IMG/VR virus record: IMGVR_UViG_3300008448_000550
Coordinates: 1-25,958 of that record
Strand: one strand, 5' to 3'
Source of the DNA: a virus
DNA length: 25,958 nucleotides
The position numbers and the translations under genes are program-made. A model generated the notes under the pieces. The model was not told the DNA's origin, did no database searches, and saw only the letters and a list, made by a program, of their open reading frames with translations. Shown piece by piece: positions 7,211-25,636 of this stretch (position 1 is its first letter; each line of letters begins with the position of its first letter).

Positions 7211-7225
7211 GAATTACGGAATAAG

Positions 7226-7748: not shown

Positions 7749-7772
7749 TTCGTATTGAGATACTTTGTAAAG

Positions 7773-7795
7773 ACCCGTTTTCGAACGGGTTTTTT
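7773..7795 (+). terminator. Rho-independent terminator with UUCG tetraloop after the tube gene
   Basis: A perfect 7-bp stem (ACCCGTT / AACGGGT, 7773-7779 with 7784-7790) closes a TTCG loop and is followed by a run of T to 7795. UUCG is the most stable tetraloop known in RNA. It lies 24 bases after the tube stop codon and ends the sheath-tube unit. Confidence 0.93.
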
Positions 7796-7805
7796 ACTGT
7801 TCGTA

Positions 7806-7817
7806 GATATTTATATA
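7806..7817 (+). promoter_or_regulatory. ATATTTAT motif copy 5 (candidate late promoter after the terminator)
   Basis: The box GATATTTATATA restarts just after the terminator and only eight bases separate its core from the ATG at 7823. If it acts as a -10 box, the mRNA would begin at or next to the start codon. No ribosome binding site is visible. Confidence 0.5.
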
Positions 7818-7822
7818 AGATA

Positions 7823-8083
7823 ATGATAGATCCAATAGAACATTACGGCACAAAGATTAACGAATCTATTTCGGCTGCAATTGGTGCGGCTGTAGGAGCA
7901 GTTGTGTTAGGAATTAAAGTTAAGAACATTATCAAAGATATAATGAAACTCGGAAAAGAAGATTCTGAGTTAAAGTCAGCAGCTATAGATTATGTACATC
8001 AGGCACAACGTCTAAAGGATTTAGCTGATAGTTATTGCGAAAGAAATCCAGATGCCCCTGGGTGTAAAGGGCGAAAGAAATAA
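7823..8083 (+). CDS. Small protein with one possible membrane helix, function unknown
   Basis: An 86-residue protein. Residues 16-33 are a small-residue hydrophobic helix (ISAAIGAAVGAVVLGIKV) with GxxxG-like spacing, which could span or pack against a membrane. The rest is a charged helix, ending in a short tail with two cysteines (Cys72 and Cys80) and basic residues. I recognise no family. It lies between the tail tube and the gp26-like gene, right behind a terminator and a motif box with an unusually short distance to the ATG. Length, reading frame and neighbours support a real gene. It might be a structural minor protein or a membrane-acting protein; neither can be shown. Confidence 0.65.
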   Translation: MIDPIEHYGTKINESISAAIGAAVGAVVLGIKVKNIIKDIMKLGKEDSELKSAAIDYVHQAQRLKDLADSYCERNPDAPGCKGRKK

Positions 8084-8118
8084 ATTTACGTTTAAACAAA
8101 AGTTATTAAAGGATTATC

Positions 8119-8982: not shown

Positions 8983-9172
8983 GTTAACGATCAATCAAGA
9001 AATCTTCGATCTAGTATTTCACGGCAAGGGTTTTACGTATGAAGACGCGTATAATATGCCGGTTCACCTTAGACACTTCTTTATACGCAAATTACAAAAG
9101 TACTTTGAAGATAAGCGTGTAGCTGAAGAAAAAGCAGCAAAAGAAGCACGTAGTCGTAATCGTAAGAAATAA
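8963..9172 (+). CDS. Frameshift extension of the gp26-like chaperone (gp51-like C-terminal part)
   Basis: Downstream of the gp26-like gene, the +1 frame is open from 8915 (after TGA 8912-8914) to TAA 9170-9172 and reads as well-behaved protein: PEYKLTINQEIFDLVFHGK, then YEDAYNMPVHLRHFFIRKL, then a Lys/Glu/Arg-rich end. There is no ATG, GTG or TTG in this frame before the Met codon at 9056, which would remove the conserved-looking half. A +1 (or -2) shift at the T run 8958-8962 (0-frame GCT TTT TGG) would join Phe281 to 69 further residues and give a 350-residue protein. A CCC-T at 8923-8926 is a second possible site. The reading frame is seen; the shift mechanism is inferred. A sequencing error is possible but would need to produce a sensible stop (TAA 8980) as well. 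Confidence 0.72.
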   Translation, partial: GLTPEYKLTINQEIFDLVFHGKGFTYEDAYNMPVHLRHFFIRKLQKYFEDKRVAEEKAAKEARSRNRKK

Positions 9173-9181
9173 AAGCGTAAC

Positions 9182-9193
9182 GATATTTATTAA
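9182..9193 (+). promoter_or_regulatory. ATATTTAT motif copy 6 (candidate late promoter before the tape-measure unit)
   Basis: The box GATATTTATTAA starts ten bases after the frameshift-frame stop (9172) and its core is 18 bases from the ATG at 9209, with AAAAAGG between. The twelve bases are identical to those of copy 7 before the ferritin gene. Confidence 0.5.
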
Positions 9194-9208
9194 TAAAAAG
9201 GATATCGA

Positions 9209-9460
9209 ATGTCTTTTAATAAACTAGAATCTCGTTTACTTAAGGAAGGTTCATTTTACGAACGTATGTTCGCAGATATCATACAAGCTTTATTTCGTCC
9301 GGCTGCTCGTAAGTTTTTTAAACAAATAGCTAAAGATATAGATACTGATCCAAAAGTAGCTAGTGATTTCCAATCGTTAATTGATGCTAAAAAGGGTTGG
9401 GAACAATGGAAAAAAACAATGGAAAAAGAGTATCCCAATCTTAAAGGTAAGTTAGACTAA
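9209..9460 (+). CDS. Small helical protein before the tape measure, function unknown
   Basis: An 83-residue, strongly basic and acidic, helix-rich protein without cysteine; its most ordered-looking parts are ERMFADIIQALFRPAARKFF (residues 18-37) and a C-terminal amphipathic helix (64-80). A clear AAAAAGG lies eight bases before the ATG and the tape-measure gene starts one base after its stop, so the two are translated together. I know no family for it. A small partner of the tape measure or chaperone would fit the place, but nothing in the sequence proves it. Confidence 0.65.
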   Translation: MSFNKLESRLLKEGSFYERMFADIIQALFRPAARKFFKQIAKDIDTDPKVASDFQSLIDAKKGWEQWKKTMEKEYPNLKGKLD

Positions 9461-9461
9461 T

Positions 9462-11777
9462 ATGGCTAAAAAACTATCACCTGCTGAAGAACAAGCTAAA
9501 CTATTAAAAGAAGCTCAGTCATTGGGTAGAGCCCTAGGACTGGAGTATGAAAATATAGCAGATCTACAAGACTTGATTTTAAAAAATCAAGTCAAGTCAA
9601 CTGCACAGATAATTAATCAGTTAAAATTAGCTCGTGAAGCACAGGACGATTTAGAAACTGATATTAAATTACAAAAACAGAAAAACAAAACAGAAGAAAT
9701 TGGTTTAGACTTAGCTTCTAAGATGTTACAAACTAAAGAATCGATTGATACTGCACAAAAGTCAATATTTACAAATACAGAAGCTACATATAAAAAGTTA
9801 AAAGAAACTTTATCAACCAGAAAAAAAGAAATTTCTAAATTAGTAGCTATGGGCGATATTAGTAGTAAAGTTGCACAAGATTCGCTTAAACAATTAGAAT
9901 TAGAAGAAGAACGTATTGATTCGTTACAACGTATTCAGGATCAATATCAGTCACAGTTTGATACACTTACATCGATAGGAAACTATCTATCGAAAAACTT
10001 TGGTGCTGTTGGCAGTGTACTACAAAAAAGTATAAATAAAGGTATGTCGACATTTGTCGATGGTATAGCTGAAGGTAAATCTTCGACAGAAGCTATGCAA
10101 GGAGCTATGAAAGCTTTCGGCGGCCAAGCTACTGCCAGTATTACTAAAATGTTAAGTTTAGTTGGTATAGTAACATTGCTATATGATATTTTTGTAGATG
10201 CTAGTAATCAAGCTAAAGAATTAGCATTAAATACTGGAATTACGTTTTCTCAAGCTAGAAAATTAACAGATGAAGCACGTAATGCAGCTTCATCATATGG
10301 TATACAATTAGCTACTAGTAAAGAAATTTTAGAAGTACAACAAGCCACTATATCAGAGTTTGGTACCATGGCTATGATGTCAACTGATATTGCAGCACAG
10401 GTTGCTGAGACAGGAAAGGCTTTTGGATATGGAGCGCAACAAGCAGCTTTAGTTAACAATCAGTTTATGTCAATGGGCGCTAGTAGTGAAGACGCAGCTA
10501 ATATGCAGCGTGAATTAGCTGCAGAAGCTCTTAAAGCCGGTGTTAATGTTGGTACTGTAATGAAAGACATTACAGCTAATGCTAAACAAGCTAGTAAATA
10601 CTTTGGCGGTAATATTAAAGCCTTACGAGATGCTGCTGTTCAAGCTGCTAAGTTAGGTATATCTTTAAAGGATATGACTAGTATATCTGATAAATTGCTA
10701 GATATAGAATCGAGCCTACAGAGTCAGTTTGAATTACAAGCTATGACTGGTAAGCAGATTAATTTAGATAAAGCACGTGAGTTAGCATTAGAAGGAAAAA
10801 TATCAGAAGCATCGAAAGCTGTATATGAGCAAATCGGCGGTATTGCTGAATTTGAAAAAATGCGTCCGTTGGAACGTAAAAAGTTAGCTGAAATGATGGG
10901 CATGGAAGTTGATGAGTTGGGAAAATCATTAGCTATACAAGAAAAATTAGGTGACTTAACTGCGGAACAACAGGCAGCTGCTATGAATTTAGGTTTGAGT
11001 GCTGCTGAAATAGCAAATATGGATGCTGATCAACTAGAAAGTAAATTAGCACAACAACAAAGTTTGGAAAAAACAAATCAAGCTTTATCAGCTGCAAAAG
11101 ATCAAATAGCTAGCGGGTTATTACCAATAGCACAAGCATTTGCAGATGTATTAGCATCTATAGCTCCAGTACTTAAGTTTTTAGGAGATTTGGTTTGGGT
11201 TATAACATGGCCATTTGTAAAGTTAGTTGAACTAGCAAAAACATTTGGAGACTATTTATCATCATTTTTACCTAAATGGGAAGAAATGGGAGCTGTAGGT
11301 AAAACTATAGTTGGTATTCTTAAAGCATTAGCAATCGGTGCTATAATATGGGGTTCATGGTCAGCCTTTGGCGGTATTCCATTTATTGGTCCGGCGTTAG
11401 CTATCGGTACCGCAGCTGCTGGTATATCATTGGTAAATAGTATAGTAAAAACCGGTGACTTAGCAATGGGTGCAAATGGCGGTCCAATTGTTACGAACCC
11501 TAGAGAAGGAACAATATTCCAAGGTACTAAAAATGATGAAGTAGCTATGGGCCCTGGTGTTATTGAAGCTGCACAATCCGGTGGTGGTACGACAGTAGTA
11601 CAACAATCAGGCGGAACAGATACAGCATTAATAACAGCTTTAATGGCAAAAATGGATGCAATTGCAGCTGCGTTAGCAACACCAGTACCAGTACAAATCG
11701 GCGATCGTGTGATTACAGAAATAGGTACGCAATTAGCAGTAAATAAAACATATAGAACAGGTGTAGGAGGTAGATAA
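9462..11777 (+). CDS. Tape measure protein
   Basis: A 771-residue protein that sets tail length and is ejected before the DNA. Residues 1-160 are a long charged coiled coil rich in Lys, Glu, Gln and Leu. A hydrophobic helix near 225-246 is followed by an alanine-rich, methionine-rich helical middle (about 250-545), then a hydrophobic region of several helices (about 550-665) and a glycine-rich stretch before a short end. The layout and its place behind the chaperone gene match phage tape measures. With roughly 1.5 angstrom per residue the tail would be near 115 nm (inference). T4 gp29 is shorter (590). The start overlaps no other gene but the stop shares a base with the next ATG (TAATG at 11775-11779). 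Confidence 0.85.
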   Translation: MAKKLSPAEEQAKLLKEAQSLGRALGLEYENIADLQDLILKNQVKSTAQIINQLKLAREAQDDLETDIKLQKQKNKTEEIGLDLASKMLQTKESIDTAQKSIFTNTEATYKKLKETLSTRKKEISKLVAMGDISSKVAQDSLKQLELEEERIDSLQRIQDQYQSQFDTLTSIGNYLSKNFGAVGSVLQKSINKGMSTFVDGIAEGKSSTEAMQGAMKAFGGQATASITKMLSLVGIVTLLYDIFVDASNQAKELALNTGITFSQARKLTDEARNAASSYGIQLATSKEILEVQQATISEFGTMAMMSTDIAAQVAETGKAFGYGAQQAALVNNQFMSMGASSEDAANMQRELAAEALKAGVNVGTVMKDITANAKQASKYFGGNIKALRDAAVQAAKLGISLKDMTSISDKLLDIESSLQSQFELQAMTGKQINLDKARELALEGKISEASKAVYEQIGGIAEFEKMRPLERKKLAEMMGMEVDELGKSLAIQEKLGDLTAEQQAAAMNLGLSAAEIANMDADQLESKLAQQQSLEKTNQALSAAKDQIASGLLPIAQAFADVLASIAPVLKFLGDLVWVITWPFVKLVELAKTFGDYLSSFLPKWEEMGAVGKTIVGILKALAIGAIIWGSWSAFGGIPFIGPALAIGTAAAGISLVNSIVKTGDLAMGANGGPIVTNPREGTIFQGTKNDEVAMGPGVIEAAQSGGGTTVVQQSGGTDTALITALMAKMDAIAAALATPVPVQIGDRVITEIGTQLAVNKTYRTGVGGR

Positions 11778-14197
11778 TGCCATTAATGACAATGACGTCG
11801 GATTTATCGTGGTACGGAAATCCAGGCTGGACTCCGAATCCTAACACACAAACAACTGATTTTCAGTATAATGCGGACTTAACAACTACGGCTATACCAC
11901 GTGGTTTCGATCAAGCAGGACATCAAGTATCATTTATACCACGTACAACACAGGATGCGTATCCTATCGATACTGCATTGGGTCCTAATGGCAGTGCAAA
12001 GCGTAAGGCACAACGTGGTAATGGTAGTTTATTTCCGATCGGACCGAATGGACAAGTACATGTATTTGACACAAAACGTACGGGTTGGTATATTGAAGAT
12101 CGTTACGGCGATACATTTTCAAATAAAACATTAACGGGATTAGCAGCTACATATACAGCTAACTCTCCGATTGATGATATGTACAACAAGTTTAAAGTAC
12201 GTGATGAGGCATATAACCCATATGGAAATATGCCATTTATATTGAGAGGTATTCAACGTGATGGTAGTTCAGCCCCGCAACGTTGGGGAGATATAAACAC
12301 AAACTTTGAAATTAAAAGTCTCGCGGATATTGCTAAACTTAGATTTTTAACAGATACCAAAACAGTTGCCGGCGCAGTATCGGCATTGGACGTGCCGCGT
12401 GCCGGCATAGCAGCATTTACGGATCGTACGATACATGATACGATTCGTGTTGGTAAGTTCTTACTGCATCCACGTGGTAATGCGTTTATTGCAAAACAAC
12501 AGTTATTACGCTTAATGTCGCCTAACATTGAAGGCGTTTCTGGCAGTGTTTATAAGCTTAGTCCTCAGAAATTATATAATCCTGTTAACACGCTATTAAC
12601 AGTAGCAGGTGTTGGTATTGGGTTACATGCTAGAAATTACGGAATGTTACCAACCGGTGGTTTAAGTCGTTATGAAGATATACATAAAGCTAGGGAAATT
12701 GCGCAACTTGGTAGTGTTGCTAATCGTTTGGTACGTTTAAATGATCAACGTACTGGAAACAGAGTTTCGCAAGTAATACCTACATGGAACGTACTCACAG
12801 GATATACAGGTCCTGATAGTTTCGGCGGCATCGGTATTACTGACTTTAAACGTATTTCGGATTATGATACATACAGAACAAATGATATACAACCAGCTGC
12901 TATATTAGATTCGTTAACAGCTGAATATGATCGTTTTAATCCATATGTAAAATCTCGAGAAGGATTTGCTGCGCCAGGAGCATTTAGCGATCCTCAGAAC
13001 AGTGTAGATAGTCGTAATTTACAATCTATATTATCTACATATCGTAAAAATTCTCTTTTTACGCTCGGAACTCGTTTTTATATTAGTTCTGCAATACCAA
13101 AAGATAAAACTAGATTTCCAATCGGTAATAGTATTGATAGACAGTTAAATTTTCATAACGATACTATTAATAATTACGGCGACGCTCTTAAAATACGTTT
13201 TCGTACGACTAGCTATTCTGAACCATATGTAGGTGATAGAACTGATAGTAGTGCTACGATTACTAATAACACCAAACCGTTAACGGAAGACGGTGCTGAA
13301 AGTAAGCTTAAAGGTAGTTTAAAAGCTAAAGTAGATTCAAATACTTTTACTGGTATTCCTACTAAAGCTCCTAATCCAGCTAAATCAGAAGATAATACAC
13401 CTGCAATTGCTAAATATAAAACATTAGCATATGGTCGTATACCAGTACGACAAAGCAGTACTAACACATTAGACTTTAGAACGGGTACGGATTACAATGT
13501 ATCAGCAGTGCCGATGTCTAAACATGTAGATACTAGTAAGGATAAACGTTTAGATGTATCAGACAACGTCGATCATAGTTTGATTACTCTGACTATTGGA
13601 GGTCAATCATTTATAGCATATTTACAGTCTTTCAATGAAAGTAATAATGCTAGTATTTCTGATTTAAAAGCTTTAGGTATTTATCAAACATATATGTATG
13701 ATAGTTATGAACGTTCTATTGGTTTAACGTTTACGGTAGCTGCTAGATCAAAAGAAGAATTGGCTAAGAACTGGCAAAAGCTTAAAGCTTTACAAAATTT
13801 AACATTACCATCTATAAACTCAGAAAAGTTTTGGAGACCTAAAACCATATCACTTACAATAGGTGATATATACAGCGGTCGTCAAATAATTTTAACATCT
13901 GTTAATATAGATGTTGATACCGAGACGCCATGGGAAATAACAACCGGACAACAAGTACCGTACTACGTTACTGTCGATATACAAGCTACGATACCATCAA
14001 TTGATGGAGCTACATTCTCAGGATTTAGCGTTGATACAAGAGCAATTGCTAATTCTATTAAAGACTCACCACAAAAAGTTCAGCGTACGGTTAGTGAATT
14101 AAATTTGATTGACGGTAACGACCAACAAGTTGATAAAGATAGTAATATATCTAATGAACCGACAGACACAGTTGCGCCAATTACTGATATGGCATAA
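11777..14197 (+). CDS. Large baseplate/tube-initiator protein (tail tip)
   Basis: An 806-residue protein. The first 550 residues show many Thr, Asn, Arg and Tyr and no family I recognise. Around residues 590-760 a beta-rich domain appears, with ERSIGLTFTVAARS, then a helix (KEELAKNWQKLKALQNL), PKTISLTIGDIYSG and IDVDTETPWEIT, and a VPYYVTVDIQATIP end. This is the tail-tube/initiator type of fold pattern seen in T4 gp48/gp54-like and distal-tail proteins. The next gene encodes a LysM protein, the usual partner of tube initiators. The C-terminal 50 residues are acidic and unstructured. Its start shares a base with the tape-measure stop. I infer that it forms the ring between the hub and the first tube ring; the N-terminal part is of unknown role. 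Confidence 0.6.
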   Translation: MPLMTMTSDLSWYGNPGWTPNPNTQTTDFQYNADLTTTAIPRGFDQAGHQVSFIPRTTQDAYPIDTALGPNGSAKRKAQRGNGSLFPIGPNGQVHVFDTKRTGWYIEDRYGDTFSNKTLTGLAATYTANSPIDDMYNKFKVRDEAYNPYGNMPFILRGIQRDGSSAPQRWGDINTNFEIKSLADIAKLRFLTDTKTVAGAVSALDVPRAGIAAFTDRTIHDTIRVGKFLLHPRGNAFIAKQQLLRLMSPNIEGVSGSVYKLSPQKLYNPVNTLLTVAGVGIGLHARNYGMLPTGGLSRYEDIHKAREIAQLGSVANRLVRLNDQRTGNRVSQVIPTWNVLTGYTGPDSFGGIGITDFKRISDYDTYRTNDIQPAAILDSLTAEYDRFNPYVKSREGFAAPGAFSDPQNSVDSRNLQSILSTYRKNSLFTLGTRFYISSAIPKDKTRFPIGNSIDRQLNFHNDTINNYGDALKIRFRTTSYSEPYVGDRTDSSATITNNTKPLTEDGAESKLKGSLKAKVDSNTFTGIPTKAPNPAKSEDNTPAIAKYKTLAYGRIPVRQSSTNTLDFRTGTDYNVSAVPMSKHVDTSKDKRLDVSDNVDHSLITLTIGGQSFIAYLQSFNESNNASISDLKALGIYQTYMYDSYERSIGLTFTVAARSKEELAKNWQKLKALQNLTLPSINSEKFWRPKTISLTIGDIYSGRQIILTSVNIDVDTETPWEITTGQQVPYYVTVDIQATIPSIDGATFSGFSVDTRAIANSIKDSPQKVQRTVSELNLIDGNDQQVDKDSNISNEPTDTVAPITDMA

Positions 14198-14215
14198 TTA
14201 TAATAAATTACATGT

Positions 14216-14503
14216 ATGAATAGATATCGAGAAAATACACTGACAGGACGACGTTACGATACTACGGTATATCCTAATTTTACAGAACGTGAGTCTGACT
14301 ACTATATCTTTTCACGTGAAGGCGATCGTTTAGATTTATTAGCAAATGCTTTTTACGGCGATCCGTCGTTATGGTGGGTATTAGCTCAAGCTAATTATTT
14401 AGGTAAAGGTAGTTTAATGGTACCGGCCGGACTACAAATACGTATACCATTTCCAATTGATGAACTTAATTTTGAGTTAGAACGAGTTATAAAAGAACGA
14501 TAA
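14216..14503 (+). CDS. LysM-domain baseplate protein (P2 gpX / T4 gp53-like)
   Basis: A 95-residue protein. Residues 30-79 form one LysM module: YIFSREGDRLDLLANAFYGDPSLWW, VLAQANYL, then a VPAGLQIRIP ending, the usual opening strand, two helices and final strand. Phage LysM proteins of this length (P2 gpX, Mu-like and injection-system equivalents) staple the hub or tube initiator to the baseplate; they do not digest cell walls. The place between the tube-initiator-like and hub genes fits. The N-terminal RYRENTLTGRRYDTT stretch is basic. No good ribosome binding site is seen; the preceding 18-base gap holds an AT-rich TATAAT. Confidence 0.85.
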   Translation: MNRYRENTLTGRRYDTTVYPNFTERESDYYIFSREGDRLDLLANAFYGDPSLWWVLAQANYLGKGSLMVPAGLQIRIPFPIDELNFELERVIKER

Positions 14504-14504
14504 T

Positions 14505-16418
14505 ATGGCAGAAAATTTCTTTTTTAGAACGCCAACGGAAGCTAAAAAGTTTGTAGCTGAACATAAAGCTCAATACAAAGCAACGTCTCGTGTTGTTAAA
14601 CTTTATATAAATTCTGGCGGCCAACGTATATTTCCAATGGATAGTAACCCACGTGGTGGTCAATCTGCATTGACGTCTACTAATACTGTAATGCTAAAAG
14701 GAGCACAAATCAGTTTGGATGGTGATTACGGAACATTGCGTCGAGCTAAAGTTGAGTTAATATTTCCTAATCATGCTTCATTTGAACATTATGAAGTATA
14801 CTTAGGAATTGGTAAAGAATTACATATAACATACGGTTACCAAGACGGATCTATGAGCGAAATACTTAAGTTTCGTATATATAATCCAACGTTTAAACTA
14901 TTAGCTAACGGTACCGTTGAAATGACTGTACAGGCTGTTGGTACTGGTAATGAATTGTTAGAAAGTAATGCATTGGAAACGACTAAAATTGTAGAGTTGA
15001 ATCTTAGTTACGTAGCTGATTATGCCGGTATATTTCCGAACGTTACTCAACCCGTAACAACTATAGTAGACTATATAGATCATTGCGTTCAACAAGCTAC
15101 TCAGACATTAAGTAGTACATTGTTTCAACCTGATGAAGGAGGCCGCGGCCCAGGAGAAGTTTTTGTTGATGCTGGAAAATATCCTAAGGCCGGATTTGTA
15201 ATTAAATCAATCGATGATGACGTATATAAAAATAAAAACATAGCTTATCAAGATACTATGTGGACTGATGAATATAAACTAGTTTATGTTTCATTAGGAT
15301 GGATTATTGCGTTATTCAATCGTTTTATTCAACCAGCGCCGAATGGATTAGTAACGTCATTTGAATTAGTTTGTAATGGTTCTGAAGAAGCTAAAGTAAA
15401 ATTAGATTATCCAAACATAGGTAATTTACCTAGTGCAGACCCACTAACTATATTATTAACATATGGACAGGGAGACTTAACGGCTGATTACGCTACGTAT
15501 ACGACAAAGTATGTAGGTAAGGCTGCTACTGCAGTACAGGAAGCCGACGGGACGCCATTTGAAATATCAAAAGTGCCAAATATGTCAACGTTTAATTTAC
15601 GTGACGGTGATCCGAACGGTATATTGATTAATCGCGATGCTATTAAAAGTATCTATTACGAAACCAATCCAAATGCAGATACAAAAGAAGATAAACGTAA
15701 TGCTTCAAAAGTTTCTATCGATACATTTTTTCAAAAGCTGTTTAAACTTATAAAGGAAAATACAGGCGGAGCTATTGATTTATATTTAACAACTGATCCT
15801 GAAAATAAAGACGTTACTAAAGCTCGAATATTGGTTGTTAATGGAAAGCAGCCGGCTGAAAATGCAGTAACGCCGTTGAGTTTTGATATTGGCGATTATG
15901 CTACAAAAGAAATTTCGTTGGAATCTTCAGTACCAAAAGATTTACAAGCAACTATATTTGGAGCCGCGCCTGGCTCAGCCGAATCCGGTACTACAACTGG
16001 TCAGATCTTATCAGATAATTCTATACAAACGGCGATACTACCAACTGTCGATGATATAAGCGTAGCTAAGGCACGATGTGGTCAAGCAAATTTTGACCCA
16101 GAAAGTATCACTGCATTACGTGATTTAATTAAACGTGTTGTAGTTGATCAACCGCCGGCCGAAAAAGCTAAGTTTGGCACTGAACTATTACCACTGTCGT
16201 TAAAATTAAAACTCCATGGAACTGACGGGTTTAAATTTGGTGATACGTTAACTACTAATCTATTACCAAAAAAATATCGTACCGAAAAAAACGGAGCTCG
16301 TGTAGCATTTACATTGTTACGCTATACACATACGTTTTCTGGTACTGGACAAATATTATGGGAGACGGAAGTTGAAACTGCATGTCGTTTAATTGAAGCT
16401 AATAAATACTCAGGATAA
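14505..16418 (+). CDS. Baseplate hub protein, gp27/gpD-like
   Basis: A 637-residue protein beginning one base after the LysM stop. It is beta-rich throughout. Near residues 65-130 it shows ALTSTNTVMLKGAQISLDGD and GKELHITYGYQDGS, and near 575-630 a KLHGTDGFKFGDTLTTNLLP motif followed by ALLRYTHTFSG-type strands (FTLLRYTHTF, QILWETEVETACRL). That last pattern is the closing beta-barrel of hub proteins of the gp27/gpD/Mu gp44 kind. Hubs form a trimer at the end of the tube and carry the spike. It is larger than T4 gp27 (391). No spike or lysozyme part is visible, so the spike gene must lie elsewhere. Confidence 0.75.
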   Translation: MAENFFFRTPTEAKKFVAEHKAQYKATSRVVKLYINSGGQRIFPMDSNPRGGQSALTSTNTVMLKGAQISLDGDYGTLRRAKVELIFPNHASFEHYEVYLGIGKELHITYGYQDGSMSEILKFRIYNPTFKLLANGTVEMTVQAVGTGNELLESNALETTKIVELNLSYVADYAGIFPNVTQPVTTIVDYIDHCVQQATQTLSSTLFQPDEGGRGPGEVFVDAGKYPKAGFVIKSIDDDVYKNKNIAYQDTMWTDEYKLVYVSLGWIIALFNRFIQPAPNGLVTSFELVCNGSEEAKVKLDYPNIGNLPSADPLTILLTYGQGDLTADYATYTTKYVGKAATAVQEADGTPFEISKVPNMSTFNLRDGDPNGILINRDAIKSIYYETNPNADTKEDKRNASKVSIDTFFQKLFKLIKENTGGAIDLYLTTDPENKDVTKARILVVNGKQPAENAVTPLSFDIGDYATKEISLESSVPKDLQATIFGAAPGSAESGTTTGQILSDNSIQTAILPTVDDISVAKARCGQANFDPESITALRDLIKRVVVDQPPAEKAKFGTELLPLSLKLKLHGTDGFKFGDTLTTNLLPKKYRTEKNGARVAFTLLRYTHTFSGTGQILWETEVETACRLIEANKYSG

Positions 16419-16420
16419 CA

Positions 16421-16990
16421 ATGCCTAGACCTAGTTTATATACACCTAAAGAAAAAATACGTATTGGTTATACCGACGGACAAGAATTTGTCACGTTATC
16501 TTCACGTGAAGAGTATATTGGATTTTATCATGTTTATCCAAACGGATCCGTTTATTCAGAACGAAGTTATGATGTTTATAAAAGTGTAGAGTTATTAGAA
16601 GTATCGACAGCATATTTTAATGATCCTAACAATAAACGTTATACGGACATTAAAAAAGTTAAGTATGACAATTATATAACGCCTGTTTATTATTCTCCAA
16701 CGCCGACGGCAGATGATTATCGAGTTGGAATTTTAAATCGTTATATTGTACAAAAACGCAACGAGCCGTATATTATAATCGAAGTTTCAAAAGAACAAAT
16801 AAACACGTTGAACATTGTTAATACGCGCGGCATTGACGGAAATCTATATGTCGGAAAACGTATTGAGTGGTGTATAACGGGTAATCGAGAAGACGTAATA
16901 AAGTCTAACCTACGTATCCTAACAAATGCAGAAGATACTATTCCGGGAATTAGTAAATACTTATCAGACTTAACAGAATTTTTTAAGTAG
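16421..16990 (+). CDS. Baseplate-linked protein, function unknown
   Basis: A 189-residue protein starting two bases after the hub stop. It is rich in Tyr, Ile, Arg and Asn and looks all-beta in the first half: an EEYIGFYHVYPNGSVYSERSY segment near residues 30-50, then a basic and polar part, and a helical end after 150. Proteins with a similar GFYHxxPNG strand occur next to hub genes in related aquatic phages as I remember them, but the role is not known. Its position makes a baseplate or fibre-attachment role likely. Translation is probably coupled to the hub. The next gene has its own promoter. Confidence 0.65.
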   Translation: MPRPSLYTPKEKIRIGYTDGQEFVTLSSREEYIGFYHVYPNGSVYSERSYDVYKSVELLEVSTAYFNDPNNKRYTDIKKVKYDNYITPVYYSPTPTADDYRVGILNRYIVQKRNEPYIIIEVSKEQINTLNIVNTRGIDGNLYVGKRIEWCITGNREDVIKSNLRILTNAEDTIPGISKYLSDLTEFFK

Positions 16991-17028: not shown

Positions 17029-18369
17029 ATGTTTATTGAATCAGATCAAGATTTGCGGTATGTACGAGATGCATTACAGAGTGGTCCTAGTTTCTGGATT
17101 CCTGTTATTTCTGACCCATTTAAGCATTATACTCAGAATACCATAAGCTTTGTATACATATATAGTATTACAGAAGACACGGATTACATCATTCCGATAC
17201 GTCATATTGATTGTATAAACATTAATATAGAACGTTTAAAGGAGTTGAGTAGTCCACATAGTATCTTTGTATTATCTAAGAAACGATTTCAAAATACATA
17301 TGTCAAACCGTGTTATGACGCCGACCTTTTTGCTTGGTGGCATACCGGTCGTATGTTGCAATTAGATGAAACAAATACACCGGCACATGATATGTGGGGG
17401 AAGTGGTGGTACAATGAAACTAACACAAACGATTGGTTGCCAATAACACGTCATTTGGAACGTTGTCGTGCAATGCGTGATGTATTTATGTACATGTATA
17501 ACAAGTATCCCGTTACCGAAGAGTTTCAAAACTATGAACGTCATATGTTAGACAATTGTCATGCTATTGAAACTAACGGATTGCGTGTTGATGACGTTGT
17601 ATTACAAGAGCATTTCAATCAGCAATCTTCTCGAGGATTTCTGTATACAGAGTATAATCCATATACTAGTACCGGACGTCCTAGTAATAAATTCGGTGGT
17701 ATAAACTTTGCTGCATTGAATAAAGATGACGGCGGCCGTGCTATGATTACAAGTCGATTTAATCGCGGTATGCTAATCGAATGTGACTTCGATGCGTTCC
17801 ATATACGTCTTATTGCTAATTTGATAGGATATACGTTACCAGATGAATCTGTACATACATATTTCGGCCGTCAATACTTTGGTAAGACAGAGTTAACGGA
17901 TGCTGAATACGAACAAAGCAAACAAATGACGTTCCATTTATTATATGGTGGTATTGATGCTGAGTTCGAAAAGATTCCATTCTTTGGTAAGACTAAACGT
18001 TATATTGCAGATTTATGGCGACAATTTCGTAAGGATGGATTTATATTGACTCCTGTATTCAAACGACCAATAACGCGCGATATGATTACGGATCCAAATG
18101 CCGGTAAACTGTTTAACTATCTGTTACAATCATATGAGACGGAACATAACATGGGTGTTATCAATGAAGTAAATACATTGTTAACGGGATATAATAGTAA
18201 GTTGATTCTTTATACATATGACTCATTTCTTATTGATTTTGATATTACAGACGGCAAGCAGTTAATAACAGAAATCAAACATACTATATCTGCAGGTAAT
18301 TTTCCGGTAAAAATAAAGGCTGGCGTCAATTATCATAAAATGCAAGATATGACTAACAGAGTTTCCTAG
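17029..18369 (+). CDS. Reduced family A DNA polymerase, thumb missing and exonuclease degenerate
   Basis: A 446-residue protein using the ATG at 17029; a GTG at 17026 is in frame but overlaps the predicted mRNA start. Polymerase signatures: GRPSN at 216-220; motif A ECDFDAFHIR with Asp253 (E. coli Pol I D705); O-helix KQMTFHLLYG with Lys298, Phe302 and Tyr306 (K758, F762, Y766); motif C YTYDSF with Asp398 (D882). Altered positions: His258 for E710, Tyr294 for R754, Tyr397 and Ser399 for H881 and E883. From NGLRVD to GRPS there are about 28 residues; Pol I has roughly 120, so the thumb is gone. The first 180 residues resemble a proofreading domain with its acidic residues lost. Role inferred: phage genome replication, or a repair or gap-filling enzyme. 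Confidence 0.85.
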   Translation: MFIESDQDLRYVRDALQSGPSFWIPVISDPFKHYTQNTISFVYIYSITEDTDYIIPIRHIDCININIERLKELSSPHSIFVLSKKRFQNTYVKPCYDADLFAWWHTGRMLQLDETNTPAHDMWGKWWYNETNTNDWLPITRHLERCRAMRDVFMYMYNKYPVTEEFQNYERHMLDNCHAIETNGLRVDDVVLQEHFNQQSSRGFLYTEYNPYTSTGRPSNKFGGINFAALNKDDGGRAMITSRFNRGMLIECDFDAFHIRLIANLIGYTLPDESVHTYFGRQYFGKTELTDAEYEQSKQMTFHLLYGGIDAEFEKIPFFGKTKRYIADLWRQFRKDGFILTPVFKRPITRDMITDPNAGKLFNYLLQSYETEHNMGVINEVNTLLTGYNSKLILYTYDSFLIDFDITDGKQLITEIKHTISAGNFPVKIKAGVNYHKMQDMTNRVS

Positions 18370-18393: not shown

Positions 18394-18942
18394 ATGGCAG
18401 AATTACCAAAAGCTACGGTGCAAACAGTTATATCATCACAAGATAGTGTTATGCTACCAAGAACACTTACGCCGGAAATCGTTGACATATTAAACTCAGC
18501 AATTGCTGAAGAATATACAGCTCATTACTTTTATAGAGGAGCTGCTAACTGGTGTCAAGGTGTCGGCTATACAAAAGCAGCTGAGTTCTATACAAAAGAA
18601 GCAGCAGCTGAGTTAGAACATGCTGAAAAATTACAGAAATATATAGTCGATTGGAATGCAACTCCGTTATTACCAGCTATAAAGTTTAACGGCAACTTTG
18701 CACATTTAATTGACGTTGTTAACAAATCATATGCTATTGAATATCAATTAGGTGATAAGTATATGGCTTGGACACGACAAATGTTTGATACGCATTTAAT
18801 GACATTTAATTTCTTGCAAGGGTTTGTAGATTTACAAAACGATTCAATAGCCGAAATGTCTGACCTGTTAAATGCAGCACAACTAGTTGATGTTTCAAAT
18901 AAATTAGATCTATTACACTATGAAGAAAGATACTTTGGTTAA
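18394..18942 (+). CDS. Ferritin (non-heme type), phage-encoded
   Basis: A 182-residue, four-helix ferritin with about 23 extra residues at the N-terminus compared with E. coli FtnA (165). Against FtnA as I recall it, LNSAIAEEYTAHYFY matches helix A with Glu40 for E17; AAAELEHAEKL gives Glu73 and His76 for E50 and H53; YAIEYQ gives Glu116 for E94; FNFLQGFVDLQ gives Gln148 for Q127. So the core ferroxidase ligands are present. FtnA Glu130 aligns with Ser151, and the third iron site (E49, E126, E129) is not kept; the site resembles animal H-ferritin more. The heme Met of bacterioferritin is absent (Leu74). It should oxidise ferrous iron and store it in a 24-subunit cage. Its 3' end overlaps the next gene by 23 bases. 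Confidence 0.9.
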   Translation: MAELPKATVQTVISSQDSVMLPRTLTPEIVDILNSAIAEEYTAHYFYRGAANWCQGVGYTKAAEFYTKEAAAELEHAEKLQKYIVDWNATPLLPAIKFNGNFAHLIDVVNKSYAIEYQLGDKYMAWTRQMFDTHLMTFNFLQGFVDLQNDSIAEMSDLLNAAQLVDVSNKLDLLHYEERYFG

Positions 18943-20302
18943 GACAGTTGATCTAGATGCTATACTACAAACAGACTCTGTACAACTTGTAACAGAACCT
19001 GAAGTGATTGTGGAATCAGTCATCGAGTCGCCAACACGTACGATTTCAGAGTCTGAATACGATGAAATAATACACGAGTGGTTTTATCGCTTACCAAAAG
19101 GGTTTGCTGAATCTCCTTATACAGACGCAGAATACGCAGTATTGAATGAAATAATGGTAGAACGCGGCTATGATCCATTAACGTCATCTGTTATGCAATT
19201 GCAATTAGAATTAAGTGCTATTGATGACGTAGAAGAAGATGAGGCAATACTATCCGAAGCAGTAATGACTAAAGATGAGTTGATTGATATTATTAGATCT
19301 ACGGAATTGCCTGATCAGGTATTACAATATATTGCACGTCAAATTGATAGTCTATCGTCAGAAGCGGGTGTTATAGAAATACTTAAAGAAAAAGGTTATG
19401 ATGACCAACACAGCAAGCGTATTTTTGATAAAGCAGTTGAGTTAGATAGTTATAATGAATTGCGTGACTATTTAACAAATCCTAAAAAAGCTATACCGTT
19501 TTCTAAGCTTGGTATATCCGGTAACTTAAATTCTATACTACCAAAAATTGGATTATCAGATGCGTTTGTAGATTGGTTGTTTACATATAAACCGACGATC
19601 GGCGGTGTTAATTCAGGTAACGCTGAAAATTTACTACGTGTGATTTTAAAGGGCGGACATATTCCTAACAAAGGAGATGTTGGTACCGATAAATTTGACG
19701 TAGAAATGAAAACATCGAAAAAAGATAGCGGGTTTCGTTTTACAGGACAATCTGGTTACGGCACGGGATTAGAGGTTTCGACATTTATGTTTGAAGCTAT
19801 AGCTAGATTATACGGTAAAGATTTACCAGAAGACTTTCCAGACCTTAAGGGTAAAAACGATACACGTCTTCAGCTATATTATGATGCTAATAAAGAGTCT
19901 TTAGCAGATACATATATTAAAGATTTAATTAAACGTAAAAAGATTACTAAGAATCAGGTAGCCAAGTTATATGCAGCTGCGTTGCAACGAGCATATAAAA
20001 ATTATAACGGCGACATGTTAGGTGACGTTATATTACCTTCCATAGACAATTTTGGAAAATTAAATACAAAAGAGTTCTTTCCGAGATTAGCTGCTTTAGA
20101 ATTTAGATACTATGCCGATGCTGAAGAATGGGGTGCATTGATGGCAGTTAATGAAAAGCGCGATTATATTATTTTTGATAAGAATGCTACAATTGAAGAG
20201 TTAGCTAAGATTTTTAAAACTCGTTTTAAACTTTCCGCGCCAAATACAAAGCCTAAAGCTACTGTACAGGACTCTCGAGTTGGAATAGAATATAGAGGAT
20301 AA
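18920..20302 (+). CDS. Putative PD-(D/E)XK nuclease-fold protein
   Basis: A 460-residue protein whose ATG lies 23 bases inside the ferritin gene. Residues 1-115 are acidic and low in complexity; 116-225 are helical. The core lies at 226-285: GGVNSGNAENLLRVILKGG, KGDVGTDKFDVEMKTS, then FRFTGQSGYGTG. The spacing of Glu236, Asp253, Glu262 and Lys264 fits the E...D...ExK active site of PD-(D/E)XK enzymes, and related phage proteins carry the form G-G-E-x-L-L...GD...E-x-K. The C-terminal 180 residues are helical and basic. I cannot say what DNA it would cut; genome processing, recombination or attack on host DNA are all possible. A structural protein that only reuses the fold is the alternative. 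Nothing proves catalytic activity. Confidence 0.55.
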   Translation: MKKDTLVKTVDLDAILQTDSVQLVTEPEVIVESVIESPTRTISESEYDEIIHEWFYRLPKGFAESPYTDAEYAVLNEIMVERGYDPLTSSVMQLQLELSAIDDVEEDEAILSEAVMTKDELIDIIRSTELPDQVLQYIARQIDSLSSEAGVIEILKEKGYDDQHSKRIFDKAVELDSYNELRDYLTNPKKAIPFSKLGISGNLNSILPKIGLSDAFVDWLFTYKPTIGGVNSGNAENLLRVILKGGHIPNKGDVGTDKFDVEMKTSKKDSGFRFTGQSGYGTGLEVSTFMFEAIARLYGKDLPEDFPDLKGKNDTRLQLYYDANKESLADTYIKDLIKRKKITKNQVAKLYAAALQRAYKNYNGDMLGDVILPSIDNFGKLNTKEFFPRLAALEFRYYADAEEWGALMAVNEKRDYIIFDKNATIEELAKIFKTRFKLSAPNTKPKATVQDSRVGIEYRG

Positions 20303-20304: not shown

Positions 20305-20691
20305 GTGAAACCACAATTATTATGCACATTTGCACATCGTAAGGATCTTGATATTATCACAGATTATATCATCACGTCCTATACGATCGTGGAGCGTAGA
20401 TTGTTTGTATTTTCGGATGCAGATGTTCGTAATGATTTATACGTAACGTATAATGTAGATACAGCAGATACAAAAAGAATACCAAATACAATACTAATAC
20501 ATCGCAAGAAAGAAACAAATACAATGTATACCGTTAACGCGCTTAACACAATTATACGTGAAGCTAATAACGGCGTACTAGATAAAACATATGTTATAAA
20601 TTGGTTAACGTACCGTAACAGTTTAGTATTAACTAACGGCGATGGGTTACGTCATATACATTTACAACTATTTAAAAGGATTGATATATAA
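20305..20691 (+). CDS. Conserved-looking hypothetical protein
   Basis: A 128-residue protein starting at GTG 20305; the ATG at 20303 is read in another frame and ends at once, so GTG is the best start, two bases after the previous stop. Without clear motifs, it has a hydrophobic strand-rich first half (RRLFVFSDADVRNDLYVTY) and a helix-rich second half (MYTVNALNTIIREANNG, then KTYVINWLTYRNSLVL). It reads like a small alpha/beta domain. I recall similar short proteins near replication genes of aquatic T4-like phages, none with known function. The stop TAA overlaps the next ATG by one base. Confidence 0.6.
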   Translation: MKPQLLCTFAHRKDLDIITDYIITSYTIVERRLFVFSDADVRNDLYVTYNVDTADTKRIPNTILIHRKKETNTMYTVNALNTIIREANNGVLDKTYVINWLTYRNSLVLTNGDGLRHIHLQLFKRIDI

Positions 20692-21110
20692 TGGCATACA
20701 GAATAGTAGCTAAGAGCCCAGAAAAACTTGATGATATCCTAGCGGATATTAAAGAATGGTTTGCAAACACGAAAGACTATGTTTCAAAGTTCGAAACAGA
20801 AAAACGTAAATTTGCTGATCCAGCAACCAAACAAATCGTTTCAAAAGACATTGATGTTATCTATGTTAAAGACATGGCTACAAAAAAAGAGACTAAGATA
20901 ATGCTTATTCCTCTTTTAAAGCCGGGTGAAATGAAAGTTGAAATGGGCGGCGAAAATGAGCATGTTATGAAAGGTAAGATCAAAAACATGATGAAAGGTC
21001 GTGGTGATTTTAAGACTTATAATAAGGATACACTCCGTAAAATGGAAGCTGTAGAAACATTACGTAACATGGTTCGTGAAGAAATAAAGCGTATCATAAA
21101 GCAAGGTTAA
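20691..21110 (+). CDS. Hypothetical basic protein before the gp32 unit
   Basis: A 139-residue, Lys/Met/Glu-rich protein. A helical start (SPEKLDDILADIKEWFANTK), a beta-type middle (KDIDVIYVKDMATKKETK, then IMLIPLLKPG) and a helical basic end (about 110-138) are visible. No cysteine, membrane segment or known motif. A stop overlapping the terminator (21098-21133) marks it as the last gene of its unit, which begins with the ferritin or polymerase. Its function is unknown. The next gene downstream is single-strand DNA-binding protein, but it lies in a separate unit. Confidence 0.6.
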   Translation: MAYRIVAKSPEKLDDILADIKEWFANTKDYVSKFETEKRKFADPATKQIVSKDIDVIYVKDMATKKETKIMLIPLLKPGEMKVEMGGENEHVMKGKIKNMMKGRGDFKTYNKDTLRKMEAVETLRNMVREEIKRIIKQG

Positions 21111-21264: not shown

Positions 21265-22047
21265 ATGGATTTAGAAGCAATTAAGAGAAAACTTAATCAG
21301 TTACAAAATCAGACAAAACGTCAAGATTTTCTTTGGAAGCCTGAACCAGGCAAACAACAAATCAGAATTGTGCCATATCAGCACAACAAAGACAATCCGT
21401 TCCAGGAATTGTATTTTCATTACGATCTAGGTAAAAAGAATTTCCTATCGCCAATTACTTACGGCAATCCTGATCCAGTAGTTGAATTCGCAGAAAAACT
21501 AAAAAATTCTGGTAATTCAGATGAATGGAAACTAGGTAAGAAGCTAGAGCCGAAGATGCGTTGCTATGTACCGATCATTGTACGTGGTAAAGAATCAGAA
21601 GGTGTTAAGTTTTGGGGCTTTGGTAAAACCGTATACACAGAACTATTAGGTTTTTGTGCAGACCCAGACTATGGTGATATTACAGATCCAATGAATGGTC
21701 GAGACATTGTAGTAGAATTTTCTCCAGCGGAAGGAGCAGGTTCATTCCCTAAAACTGCAATACGTGTTAAGCCAAACACGACACCATTAACGACAGATAG
21801 AAATATTGCTGAGAAAGTTGCACAGCAACAAGCAAATCTATCAGAAGTATTCAAAGAGCCAACTTATGATGAGTTGAAAGAAGCTTTAGAAACTTGGTTG
21901 ACGGGCGATACATCTACATCAGAAGAAGAAACATCAACTGCTAGTGCACCTGCATCTAGTGGTGGGGTAAGGCCAAATGAAAGCTTTATGGACGGTGTTA
22001 ATTCAGTAGATGATGTCGGAGCCGCATTCGATGAATTATTTAACTAA
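21265..22047 (+). CDS. gp32: Single-stranded DNA-binding protein, T4 gp32-like
   Basis: A 260-residue protein (T4 gp32: 301). It starts with the basic LAST-type helix (EAIKRKLNQLQNQTKRQ), then FLWKPEPGKQQIRIVPY (residues 22-38), the usual opening of the OB core, and PFQELYFHYDLGKKNFLSP. The T4 zinc ligands (a His and three Cys) are not visible; the matching region reads SPITYGNPDPV, so the zinc finger is gone. FGFGKTVYTELLGF-like strands (near 118-132) follow. The end is a Ser/Thr/Glu-rich linker and an acidic DDVGAAFDELFN tail, the part that recruits partners. It coats single strands for replication and recombination and works with UvsX and the helicase. AAAGG precedes the ATG; the leader holds a direct repeat. 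Confidence 0.92.
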   Translation: MDLEAIKRKLNQLQNQTKRQDFLWKPEPGKQQIRIVPYQHNKDNPFQELYFHYDLGKKNFLSPITYGNPDPVVEFAEKLKNSGNSDEWKLGKKLEPKMRCYVPIIVRGKESEGVKFWGFGKTVYTELLGFCADPDYGDITDPMNGRDIVVEFSPAEGAGSFPKTAIRVKPNTTPLTTDRNIAEKVAQQQANLSEVFKEPTYDELKEALETWLTGDTSTSEEETSTASAPASSGGVRPNESFMDGVNSVDDVGAAFDELFN

Positions 22048-22066: not shown

Positions 22067-23206
22067 ATGGCGGTATCTAAGAGTGAACTGTCCGATGAAT
22101 TAGCTGGCGAATTAGCTAGTAATCTTAACAAGAAGTTTAAGGGCTCCGGTTATAAGACTGCATACTTTTTGGAGGGGGATGAAGATTCCCCTTCAAATGT
22201 ATCTGGTTGGGTTGGTACTGGATCTAGCATGCTAGATTTAGCTATCTCAAATCGTCCACATGGAGGATTTCCAATTGGTCGTATAACCGAAATTACGGGT
22301 CTTGAAGCATCTGGTAAGTCTTTATTAGCAACGCATGCTTTAGCTGATACGCAGCGACAAGGCGGTTTAGCTGTATATATTGATACAGAAAGCGCTGTTA
22401 GTAAGGAATACTTAGAAGCAATCGGTATTGATTTAAAAAAGATGTTATATGTTCCGTTGGAAACAATGGAAGATATATTTGAAGCTATTGAATCAATCGT
22501 TGAATCTGTTCGTAAATCAAACAAAGATCGTTTAGTTACAATTGTAGTTGACTCAGTAATGGGCGCATCTACTAAAATTGAAATGGCAGCTGAGTTTGAT
22601 AAGGATGGTTGGGCAACTAGTAAAGCAATTATCTTATCAAAAGGTATGCGTAAGATCACTAATATGATTGCGCGCGAAAAGATTTGTTTATTGTTTACAA
22701 ACCAATTGCGTTCTCGCTTAGGTGTAAGTTTTGGTGATCCATGGACTACATCAGGTGGTAAAGCTATTCCATTCCACGCTTCAGTTCGTCTACGACTTAA
22801 GTCTGTAGGACAAATTAAAGCTAAAGATTCAAACGGCGTAGAACAGATTATTGGAATTAAAACTAGAGTACAAGTAATCAAGAATCGTATGGGTCCACCC
22901 CTTAAGTCAATTGATTATGACATTTACTTTGAATCGGGCATTGATAATTACGGTGGTTGGTTAGAAGTAATGAAAGAGTATAAGCTAGTAACGCAAGCCG
23001 GTGCTTGGTATACATATACTAAAGCTGATGGCAAAGCTGTAAAGTTTCTTTCAAAAGATTTCCAAGGAACGCTAGAAGCTGAACCGGCGCTAAAAGATGA
23101 AATTTACAATGCAATTTGTGAAGCTTATATCTTTAAGTATCAGTCTGGTGCCATTGGTATAGACGACATTTCGATTGATGAAGATTTTGTAAGTGAAGAA
23201 TCATGA
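22067..23206 (+). CDS. uvsX: Recombinase UvsX (RecA family)
   Basis: A 379-residue protein close to T4 UvsX (391). Walker A is GLEASGKS (78-85), the catalytic Glu is in YIDTES (Glu108), Walker B is VTIVVDSV with Asp162, and the DNA-binding loop 2 is NQLRSRLGVSFGDPWTTSGGKA (about 212-232). It forms filaments on single-stranded DNA, driving strand exchange and recombination-dependent replication. AAAAGGAG lies before the ATG, the strongest ribosome site of the replication unit. The start is 19 bases after gp32; the stop overlaps the exonuclease start (ATGA), so the two are translated together. The C-terminus is acidic (DDISIDEDFVSEES), as in UvsX and RecA tails. Confidence 0.95.
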   Translation: MAVSKSELSDELAGELASNLNKKFKGSGYKTAYFLEGDEDSPSNVSGWVGTGSSMLDLAISNRPHGGFPIGRITEITGLEASGKSLLATHALADTQRQGGLAVYIDTESAVSKEYLEAIGIDLKKMLYVPLETMEDIFEAIESIVESVRKSNKDRLVTIVVDSVMGASTKIEMAAEFDKDGWATSKAIILSKGMRKITNMIAREKICLLFTNQLRSRLGVSFGDPWTTSGGKAIPFHASVRLRLKSVGQIKAKDSNGVEQIIGIKTRVQVIKNRMGPPLKSIDYDIYFESGIDNYGGWLEVMKEYKLVTQAGAWYTYTKADGKAVKFLSKDFQGTLEAEPALKDEIYNAICEAYIFKYQSGAIGIDDISIDEDFVSEES

Positions 23207-24249
23207 ACCCAAAGTATTTAGAACTATTTAAACAAGTTACATCAGAACATGAACAAGCTCAAAGCGAAACAGCTGAGAGTAGAATTCTTGTTATAGATGG
23301 ACTAAATACATTTATTCGCGTCTTTTCAGCAGTACCTGCTTTAAATGACGACGGTGAACATATCGGCGGTGTAACGGGCTTTTTAAGGTCCGTTGCATCT
23401 GTCGTTCGCCAACTGAAGCCAACGCGTTGTATCATTGTATTTGATGGTAAAGGCGGTTCGGCTAAACGTAAAAAAATGTATTCTGGTTATAAAAGTAACC
23501 GAGCTGTAAAAACGGCATTTAATCGCTATCAGGAATTTGCTAATCTCGAAGATGAATCAGCATCGATGAAACGACAATTTGGTCGTGTAATTGAATATCT
23601 AGGTTTTCTTCCAGTAACTACTATAGCAATTGATAATGTTGAAGCAGATGATATCATTGCGTATATTGCTAATGAAGTATATACTGATGATAAACATAAA
23701 GTTACGATTGTATCTACAGACCGAGATTTTTTACAATTAGTAAATAATCGTATCAGTGTTTGGAGTCCAGTTAAAAAGATATTGTACACTCCAGAGGTGC
23801 TACAACAAGAAATTGGTTTACCGGCACATAACTATTTAATGTATCGCGCAATAACAGGTGATAAGTCTGATAATATTCCAGGCCTTAAGGGCGTTGGATT
23901 AAAAACACTTATCAAACATTTTCCAATTCTTCAGGAACAACGTGAAGTTGGTATTGATGAATTAATGACATATGCCGATACAGTACAAAAGAAACATAAC
24001 GTTCATGAGTCGCTTTTAGCTAATCGTGAACAATTGGTCATGAATCATGAACTAATGCAACTTAAACAAGTTGATATTGCAGGTAATGCTAAACTATTAG
24101 CATTGAATTTAGTCCGAGAACCAGTACGTAGAACAAATGTGTATGAGTTCAAAAAGATGTTTATGTTAGATAAGATGTATACGACAATTAAAGACGTTGA
24201 TTCTTGGCTAGCATCTTTTAGTACACTAAATGCTCATACAAGCATTTGA
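23203..24249 (+). CDS. 5'-3' exonuclease (FEN / Pol I N-terminal type)
   Basis: A 348-residue nuclease of the flap endonuclease family, to which T4 RNase H belongs. Acidic metal ligands appear in order: IDGLN (Asp32), VFDGKG (Asp81), EADD (Glu147, Asp149, Asp150), STDRD (Asp173, Asp175) and GDKSDNIPG (Asp220, Asp223), followed by the helix-hairpin-helix IPGLKGVGLKTL that grips duplex DNA. A YSGYKSNR stretch near 93-100 supplies conserved basic residues. It should remove RNA primers and 5' flaps on the lagging strand. The extra 25 residues at the start and 100 at the end are helical and unrecognised. The ATG shares bases with the uvsX stop. The 3' end carries the -35 box of the helicase promoter. 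Confidence 0.9.
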   Translation: MNPKYLELFKQVTSEHEQAQSETAESRILVIDGLNTFIRVFSAVPALNDDGEHIGGVTGFLRSVASVVRQLKPTRCIIVFDGKGGSAKRKKMYSGYKSNRAVKTAFNRYQEFANLEDESASMKRQFGRVIEYLGFLPVTTIAIDNVEADDIIAYIANEVYTDDKHKVTIVSTDRDFLQLVNNRISVWSPVKKILYTPEVLQQEIGLPAHNYLMYRAITGDKSDNIPGLKGVGLKTLIKHFPILQEQREVGIDELMTYADTVQKKHNVHESLLANREQLVMNHELMQLKQVDIAGNAKLLALNLVREPVRRTNVYEFKKMFMLDKMYTTIKDVDSWLASFSTLNAHTSI

Positions 24250-24280: not shown

Positions 24281-25636
24281 ATGACAGACCGTTTATCAAG
24301 CTATGGATATGCCTTTCAAATTAAAGTCATTACGGCTTTGATGACCGATAAAGGCTTTTTACAACAGATAGCAGACATACTATCTCCAAAATATTTTGAA
24401 AGTGAAGCTAATGAATGGATTGTAGATACTTCTTTAGAGTACTTTAAACAATACAAGACATCGCCTACTTTAGAAGTAATGAAAGTTAAACTTCAAGAAG
24501 TAGATAATGATGTATTAGTAACACAGATTAAAGAACATTTAAAAGATGCTTGGAAATATACAGAAGCATCAGACTTAGATTTTATAAAACAGCAAGCTTT
24601 AGACTTCTGTAAGAATCAAGAAATCAAAAAAGCAATTATTGCATCAGTTGATTTGCTTAAAACTGGTCGTTACGATGACATTAAAGCAAAAATAGATGCA
24701 GCTTTAAAGTCCGGCGGTGATAAAGATATAGGTCATGACTACATGACTAGTATCGATGAACGTTACGCGGAGTCAGTACGCGATACACGAGAAACGCCAT
24801 GGGACATTATCAATGAGTTAACATCGGGTGGTTTAGGTAAAGGTGAGTTAGGAGTATTCGTAGCTCCAGCTGGTATTGGTAAGTCATGGGGTCTTGTAAA
24901 TATAGGAGCACATGCTCTTAAGAAAGGACTCAATGTTATTTACTATACTCTGGAATTGAATGGAGCATATGTCGGCTTACGCTTCGATAGTGTTATAACT
25001 GGTATAGCAAATCAAAACTTAAAACATTACCAAGATCAAGTTAAGGAAGAGTTAGCAAAACTAACTGGTAACCTAATCATTAAGTACTACCCAACTAAGA
25101 CATGTTCTGTAATGGGCTTGAGAGCTCATGTAGAAAAATGCATAATGCAAGGTATTACTCCAGATGTTATTATTGTTGACTATGCTGACTTGTTACGAGG
25201 ACATGGACAAGAGAAACGTCATGAACTAGAAGGTATATATGAAGACCTTCGTGGTATGGCAGGTGAATATGGAGTGCCAATTTGGACAGCATCTCAAGCA
25301 AACCGATCGGCACTTGAAGAAGATGTTATTGGAGCAGAGAAGATTGCTGAATCATATGGTAAAGTGATGGTTGCTGACTTCGTAATATCACTATCTCGTA
25401 AAGTAACAGATAAATTAGCTGGTACAGGTCGTTGGCACGTAATTAAGAATCGTTTCGGACCTGACGGTATTACATTGCCTAGTAAGATGAATATGTCTAA
25501 TGGACAGATTAACATATACGCAGAGACATCGGTGCAAGGCAAGGATACTAAAAAGCAAATGGAAAATGGAAATGAACTAGCACGTAAGATGATAGCTCAA
25601 AAATACAAAGAAATTCAAACAGATGACTTTGGGTAA
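24281..25636 (+). CDS. gp41: Replicative DNA helicase, T4 gp41-like (DnaB family)
   Basis: A 451-residue protein (T4 gp41: 475). Residues 1-140 form the helical N-terminal collar (FLQQIADILSPKYFESEANEW...). RecA-core motifs are clear: Walker A APAGIGKS (195-202), Glu225 in YYTLELN, Walker B VIIVDYADLL with Asp300, and motif H3 TASQANRSA with Gln339; an arginine-finger-like KNRFGPDG follows in the C-terminal part. Hexamers move along the lagging-strand template ahead of the polymerase. The start has its own promoter and a predicted leaderless mRNA. The C-terminus is basic and polar. A gp59-like loader or a primase is not in this window; no primase domain is fused to it. Confidence 0.93.
   Translation: MTDRLSSYGYAFQIKVITALMTDKGFLQQIADILSPKYFESEANEWIVDTSLEYFKQYKTSPTLEVMKVKLQEVDNDVLVTQIKEHLKDAWKYTEASDLDFIKQQALDFCKNQEIKKAIIASVDLLKTGRYDDIKAKIDAALKSGGDKDIGHDYMTSIDERYAESVRDTRETPWDIINELTSGGLGKGELGVFVAPAGIGKSWGLVNIGAHALKKGLNVIYYTLELNGAYVGLRFDSVITGIANQNLKHYQDQVKEELAKLTGNLIIKYYPTKTCSVMGLRAHVEKCIMQGITPDVIIVDYADLLRGHGQEKRHELEGIYEDLRGMAGEYGVPIWTASQANRSALEEDVIGAEKIAESYGKVMVADFVISLSRKVTDKLAGTGRWHVIKNRFGPDGITLPSKMNMSNGQINIYAETSVQGKDTKKQMENGNELARKMIAQKYKEIQTDDFG

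Follow-up and report, generated by a model that had tools for sequence, protein, structure and literature searches.

The window analysed here, a 25,958-nt stretch of viral DNA, encodes on its plus strand a family A DNA polymerase without a thumb, together with a downstream set of replication and recombination genes. The features discussed below, with the basis of each assignment, are as follows.

17029..18369 (+): divPolA1-type thumbless family A DNA polymerase, 446 aa (ORF, PHROG, profile, AlphaFold2)
17029..17577 (+): exonuclease-like N-terminal domain, residues 1-183 (D355/E357 positions aligned by hand)
17593..17673 (+): place of the missing thumb, residues 189-215 (model and 56-member alignment)
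17677..17679 (+): R217, equivalent to Klenow R668, invariant (profile alignment)
17785..17802 (+): motif A, D253-F-D-A-F-H258, with the equivalents of catalytic Asp705 and the E710 steric gate (profile alignment)
17908..17946 (+): O-helix with Y294 (R754 in Klenow), K298 (K758), F302 (F762) and Y306 (Y766) (profile alignment)
18127..18129 (+): Q367, equivalent to Klenow Q849, invariant (profile alignment)
18217..18225 (+): motif C, Y397-D398-S399, equivalent to H881-D882-E883 (profile alignment)
20305..20691 (+): conserved 128-aa protein (HRKKETNTxYTxNALN), candidate divPolA1 partner (linkage, model)
21265..22047 (+): gp32-like single-strand DNA-binding protein (Pfam/PHROG matches, conserved position)
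22067..23206 (+): UvsX-like recombinase (Pfam/PHROG matches, conserved position)
23203..24249 (+): 5′-3′ exonuclease, homologous to the Pol I N-terminal domain (Pfam/PHROG matches, conserved position)
24281..25636 (+): DnaB/gp41-like replicative helicase (Pfam/PHROG matches, conserved position)

The polymerase ORF comprises 446 codons and a stop, with an alternative GTG start one codon upstream at 17026. Tail genes occupy the DNA upstream of it (5060-16990, tail sheath at 5060-7210), and the gene that adjoins it, 16421-16990, lies upstream of divPolA1 in 60 of 62 relatives. Downstream, a ferritin-like gene (18394-18942, PF00210 6.6e-20) that is found in only 6 of 78 relatives splits the polymerase from the replication genes. 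The 460-aa protein at 18920-20302 contains a D-x-E-x-K stretch (DVEMK), possibly that of a nuclease, and matches no family; this ORF lies between divPolA1 and gp32 in 24 of the 50 loci that extend at least 4 kb downstream.

Searched alone, the window polymerase matches Pfam DNA_pol_A at E 0.0018, under the family cut-off, and phrog_17 at 7.5e-13. The PF00476 search of the window's own record returned no match despite the polymerase gene there, which marks the protein as highly divergent. A family profile built from 56 relatives matches Klenow at 5.3e-8, with motif A, the O-helix and motif C aligned. The AlphaFold2 model, made from the 56-sequence alignment (pLDDT 94.1, pTM 0.90), aligns with Mycobacterium smegmatis Pol1 in VIA-align 2 over 405 of 446 residues (Z 28.1, rmsd 3.2), and Bst fragments give similar values. 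The palm and fingers fold of Pol I is present (Foldseek E 7e-18), complete and with both catalytic aspartates kept. Against gp001 of Flavobacterium phage immuto the identity is 30.9% (E 4e-56, 90% coverage), and the protein is a diverged member of divPolA1. Because the thumb is absent, we describe it as family A by fold, on a divergent branch, rather than as a canonical member.

In family A polymerases, the thumb counts as essential for gripping the duplex. A sequence-only reading of this DNA had held that it is missing here, and the model, which has the fold of the Pol I large fragment without a normal thumb, bears this out. Between NGLRVD and GRPSN there are 27 residues (189-215), in which the model has a single 8-residue helix (189-196). 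The G184-G216 interval measures 31 residues in the window polymerase and 18-35 in all 56 aligned relatives, against roughly 120 in Klenow (chain positions, profile alignment).

The same reading had taken the N-terminal part for an exonuclease domain stripped of its acidic residues, and this too agrees with the model and alignments. Residues 184-446 can supply 263 of the 405 aligned positions, so 142 or more of residues 1-183 must align with the Pol I large fragments, and the N-terminal part has an exonuclease-like fold. By hand alignment to Klenow, the positions of D355 and E357 are V26 and S28; across the 56 members the first is never acidic, and the second is Ser, Cys, Thr, Lys or Asn, with one Glu. 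Motif I was judged from this alignment, while for motifs II and III we follow Yutin et al. 2024 (PMC11348598), who describe all three exonuclease aspartates as replaced in divPolA1. Going by its residues, which lack the catalytic acids, the domain is dead as a 3′-5′ exonuclease of the Pol I type. Five loci (L091-L093, L100, L103) encode divPolA1 of 338-342 aa, some 100 N-terminal residues fewer (L091:6203-7219, L100:9998-11011, L103:3253-4278), those of L091-L093 being the same protein as judged by search scores. In L091, L100 and L103 the DNA upstream of the shortened gene holds the previous gene and stops, so much of the N-terminal domain is dispensable.

The active site combines an intact catalytic core with a fixed set of replacements. 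Counts refer to 56 diverse aligned members, and Klenow numbering comes from the profile alignment. D253, R217, K298, F302, Q367, N363 and D398 are invariant, and Y306 is kept in 55, as expected from the earlier claim that the catalytic aspartates and the O-helix Lys, Phe and Tyr survive. The replacement of E710, R754, H881 and E883 by His, Tyr, Tyr and Ser, also proposed from the single sequence, holds across the family: His at the steric-gate position (H258) and Tyr at the H881 position (Y397) occur in all 56, Tyr at the R754 position (Y294) in 54, and the E883 position (S399) is Ser in 52 and Ala in 4. Y395 is likewise constant, D255 is found in 52 members, and H276, at the H734 position, in 55. 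Chance decay would not have settled on identical replacements in 56 members, and we therefore regard them as a signature and not as degeneration. In Pol I the steric gate is Glu710 (PMC13228545), which makes the constant His a naturally occurring variant of the active site. Loss of the R754, H881 and E883 equivalents could mean weak or different chemistry.

The family is large. A first scan for polymerase relatives gave 7 loci, and a profile scan of IMG/VR found at least 576 stretches that encode them, far beyond chance. Among GenBank phages, relatives that cover most of the length occur in Flavobacterium phage immuto (four records), Microcystis phage Mel-JY01 and an uncultured phage of 484 kb. 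Scanning bacterial and archaeal genomes gave relatives on five contigs, two of them labelled Flavobacteriales or Flavobacteriaceae. The order divPolA1, 128-aa gene, gp32, UvsX, exonuclease, DnaB is kept even among members at 28-35% identity. In loci of sufficient length, gp32 follows divPolA1 in 38 of 39, UvsX in 33 of 34, the exonuclease in 26 of 27 and the helicase in 22 of 25.

Loss of the thumb and of the exonuclease is not new. Yutin et al. 2024 (PMC11348598) describe divPolA1 in 14 phages, immuto included, with the palm kept, the thumb truncated and replication genes conserved downstream. The window polymerase shares with immuto gp001 the missing thumb, the dead exonuclease and the downstream gene order; in immuto and other long relatives a regular polymerase stands beside it. 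To the 14 phages of that paper the present scans add the IMG/VR stretches, a genome of 484 kb and members with a shortened N-terminus. Neither the His/Tyr signature nor the 128-aa gene is mentioned in the text available, and both may partly show in that paper's alignments and gene maps. What is added to the published family is the conserved active-site signature and the linked 128-aa gene, both of which are testable. The literature yielded no biochemistry for any divPolA1 member.

Klenow and Bst share with the window polymerase the palm, fingers and exonuclease-like fold and the equivalents of D705, D882, K758, F762, Y766, Q849 and R668, but they possess a thumb and have E710, R754, H881 and E883 where the window polymerase has His, Tyr, Tyr and Ser. 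The divPolA2 of barbaviruses likewise provides, next to PolB, a second palm of family A that lacks a standard thumb, but as described in PMC11348598 it differs in having an unrelated N-terminal domain and a variable gene neighborhood. Rhodothermus phage RM378 is also a T4-related phage with an unusual arrangement, a split polymerase. Its p092, however, has family B motifs (read by eye), and its first 50 kb gave no real match to the window polymerase, and on these grounds we reject a split polymerase of the RM378 type.

divPolA1 is a second polymerase: the large T4-related phages in which it occurs also possess a normal one. A regular enzyme accompanies it in 15 of 16 long relatives, and since the window is itself a 26-kb fragment, we infer its own replicase from these. 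Family B polymerases occur in 14 of the 16 long records with divPolA1, most holding full-length enzymes of 816-866 aa, while immuto has a full family A enzyme of 777 aa. In the 484-kb phage L010 (record LR756508, positions 260623-266900 and 47415-48068), family B matches fall in two separate ORFs, of 1022 and 625 aa, alongside a DnaE-like protein of 575 aa. The 101-kb contig L078, which may be a fragment, has a primase, but divPolA1 is the only polymerase of families A, B or C detected on it. A search for a sliding clamp with PF02916 found no match, and its controls were silent too, which makes it uninformative.

The sequence-only reading had proposed a specialized role and a need for a partner. 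The separate replicase in relatives and a candidate partner gene support this, although the enzyme belongs to a published family and is not a lone oddity. That candidate is the 128-aa protein: in 49 of 50 loci that extend 4 kb or more downstream, a relative of it separates divPolA1 from gp32, whereas other ORFs, the 460-aa one apart, recur there in few loci. A tblastn search of 50,697 phage records found it in exactly six, those with a divPolA1 match over 80% of its length. A second scan, seeded with the 128-aa protein, recovered divPolA1 in all loci with about 7 kb or more upstream, several of its contigs overlapping those of the first scan. In the 128-aa protein L5, C7, F9, H66, R67, Y75, N78 and N81 are invariant. 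Its AlphaFold2 model is alpha/beta (pLDDT 91.7), and comparison with the PDB gave nothing significant, the best match being to origin-binding domains of the polyomavirus T-antigen (VIA Z 5.0), with Foldseek E above 0.5. BFVD gave a single homolog, from an uncultured phage, and Pfam and PHROG scans of the family gave weak, scattered matches only. Mirror-tree partial correlations (0.61 for the polymerase with gp32, 0.46 with the 128-aa protein) come from pairs that are not independent and are suggestive only.

The 128-aa protein is thus a candidate partner by linkage, but gp32 and UvsX are no less constant there, and clade-wide inheritance could yield the same pattern. The linked gene does not establish a separate thumb subunit nearby: an alpha/beta protein with no significant PDB match is not a recognizable thumb, and a helical thumb subunit next door is not supported. 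The 139-aa ORF at 20691-21110 was also rejected as a partner, since it occurs in 3 of 45 loci, all close relatives. A two-subunit enzyme made of divPolA1 and the 128-aa protein, with the small protein in place of the thumb and nucleotide choice altered by the His gate, seems to us rather improbable.

We think it probable that divPolA1 is an active, non-proofreading accessory polymerase that works on short tracts within the gp32-UvsX-exonuclease-DnaB module and is held on DNA by partners. Yutin et al. 2024 (PMC11348598) take the same view of its activity and propose a replication role. Bulk genome copying would fall to a separate replicase, usually of family B. divPolA1 would extend recombination intermediates within the module and, with the neighboring 5′-3′ exonuclease, fill primer and repair gaps; the two would in effect amount to a Pol I divided between two proteins, and it is the adjacency of an exonuclease of the Pol I type that suggests such a division, serving to remove primers and fill gaps. 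In place of the thumb, partners such as gp32 or the linked 128-aa protein would hold the duplex.

Other roles would fit parts of the same evidence. An error-prone or damage-tolerant enzyme that bypasses lesions at UvsX intermediates is unlikely, but such work might suit a loosely gripping polymerase that lacks both thumb and proofreading and has UvsX and gp32 as neighbors. The motif A spacing DxDA(F/Y)x resembles, by analogy, that of the Y-family motif, whereas in its fingers and O-helix the protein is a normal member of family A. The place of divPolA1 in the conserved replication core would suit a main replicase made processive by the module proteins, with PolB or PolA as the auxiliary; PMC11348598 places the regular polymerase among genes for chaperonins and nucleotide metabolism, and immuto gp199 adjoins groES/groEL. 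With neither a thumb nor a proofreading site in divPolA1, and full-length family B enzymes in most long records, we consider such a role rather doubtful.

The steric-gate position raises the question of sugar selection. A His there in all 56 aligned members could admit ribonucleotides, for priming or for RNA-DNA patches, but the equivalents of Phe762, Tyr766 and Gln849 are kept and His is itself bulky. Of the 16 long records, 8 encode a homolog of immuto gp091, a primase of the DnaG type, so divPolA1 need not be a primase, and we hold altered sugar selection to be quite improbable. Replacement of the R754, H881 and E883 equivalents might even point to an inactive, polymerase-like scaffold; with D253, D398, K298, F302, Q367 and R217 invariant throughout, this is the reading to which we give very little credence.

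The invariant His steric gate and the Tyr-Asp-Ser/Ala motif C offer a natural variant for studies of nucleotide selection. If the two-subunit enzyme of divPolA1 and the 128-aa protein were real, it would represent an alternative design for enzymes of family A. More broadly, a large and conserved family that lacks the thumb and lies beside gp32, UvsX, a 5′-3′ exonuclease of the Pol I type and the 128-aa protein allows a direct test, in a cultured Flavobacterium phage, of how a thumbless polymerase holds DNA.
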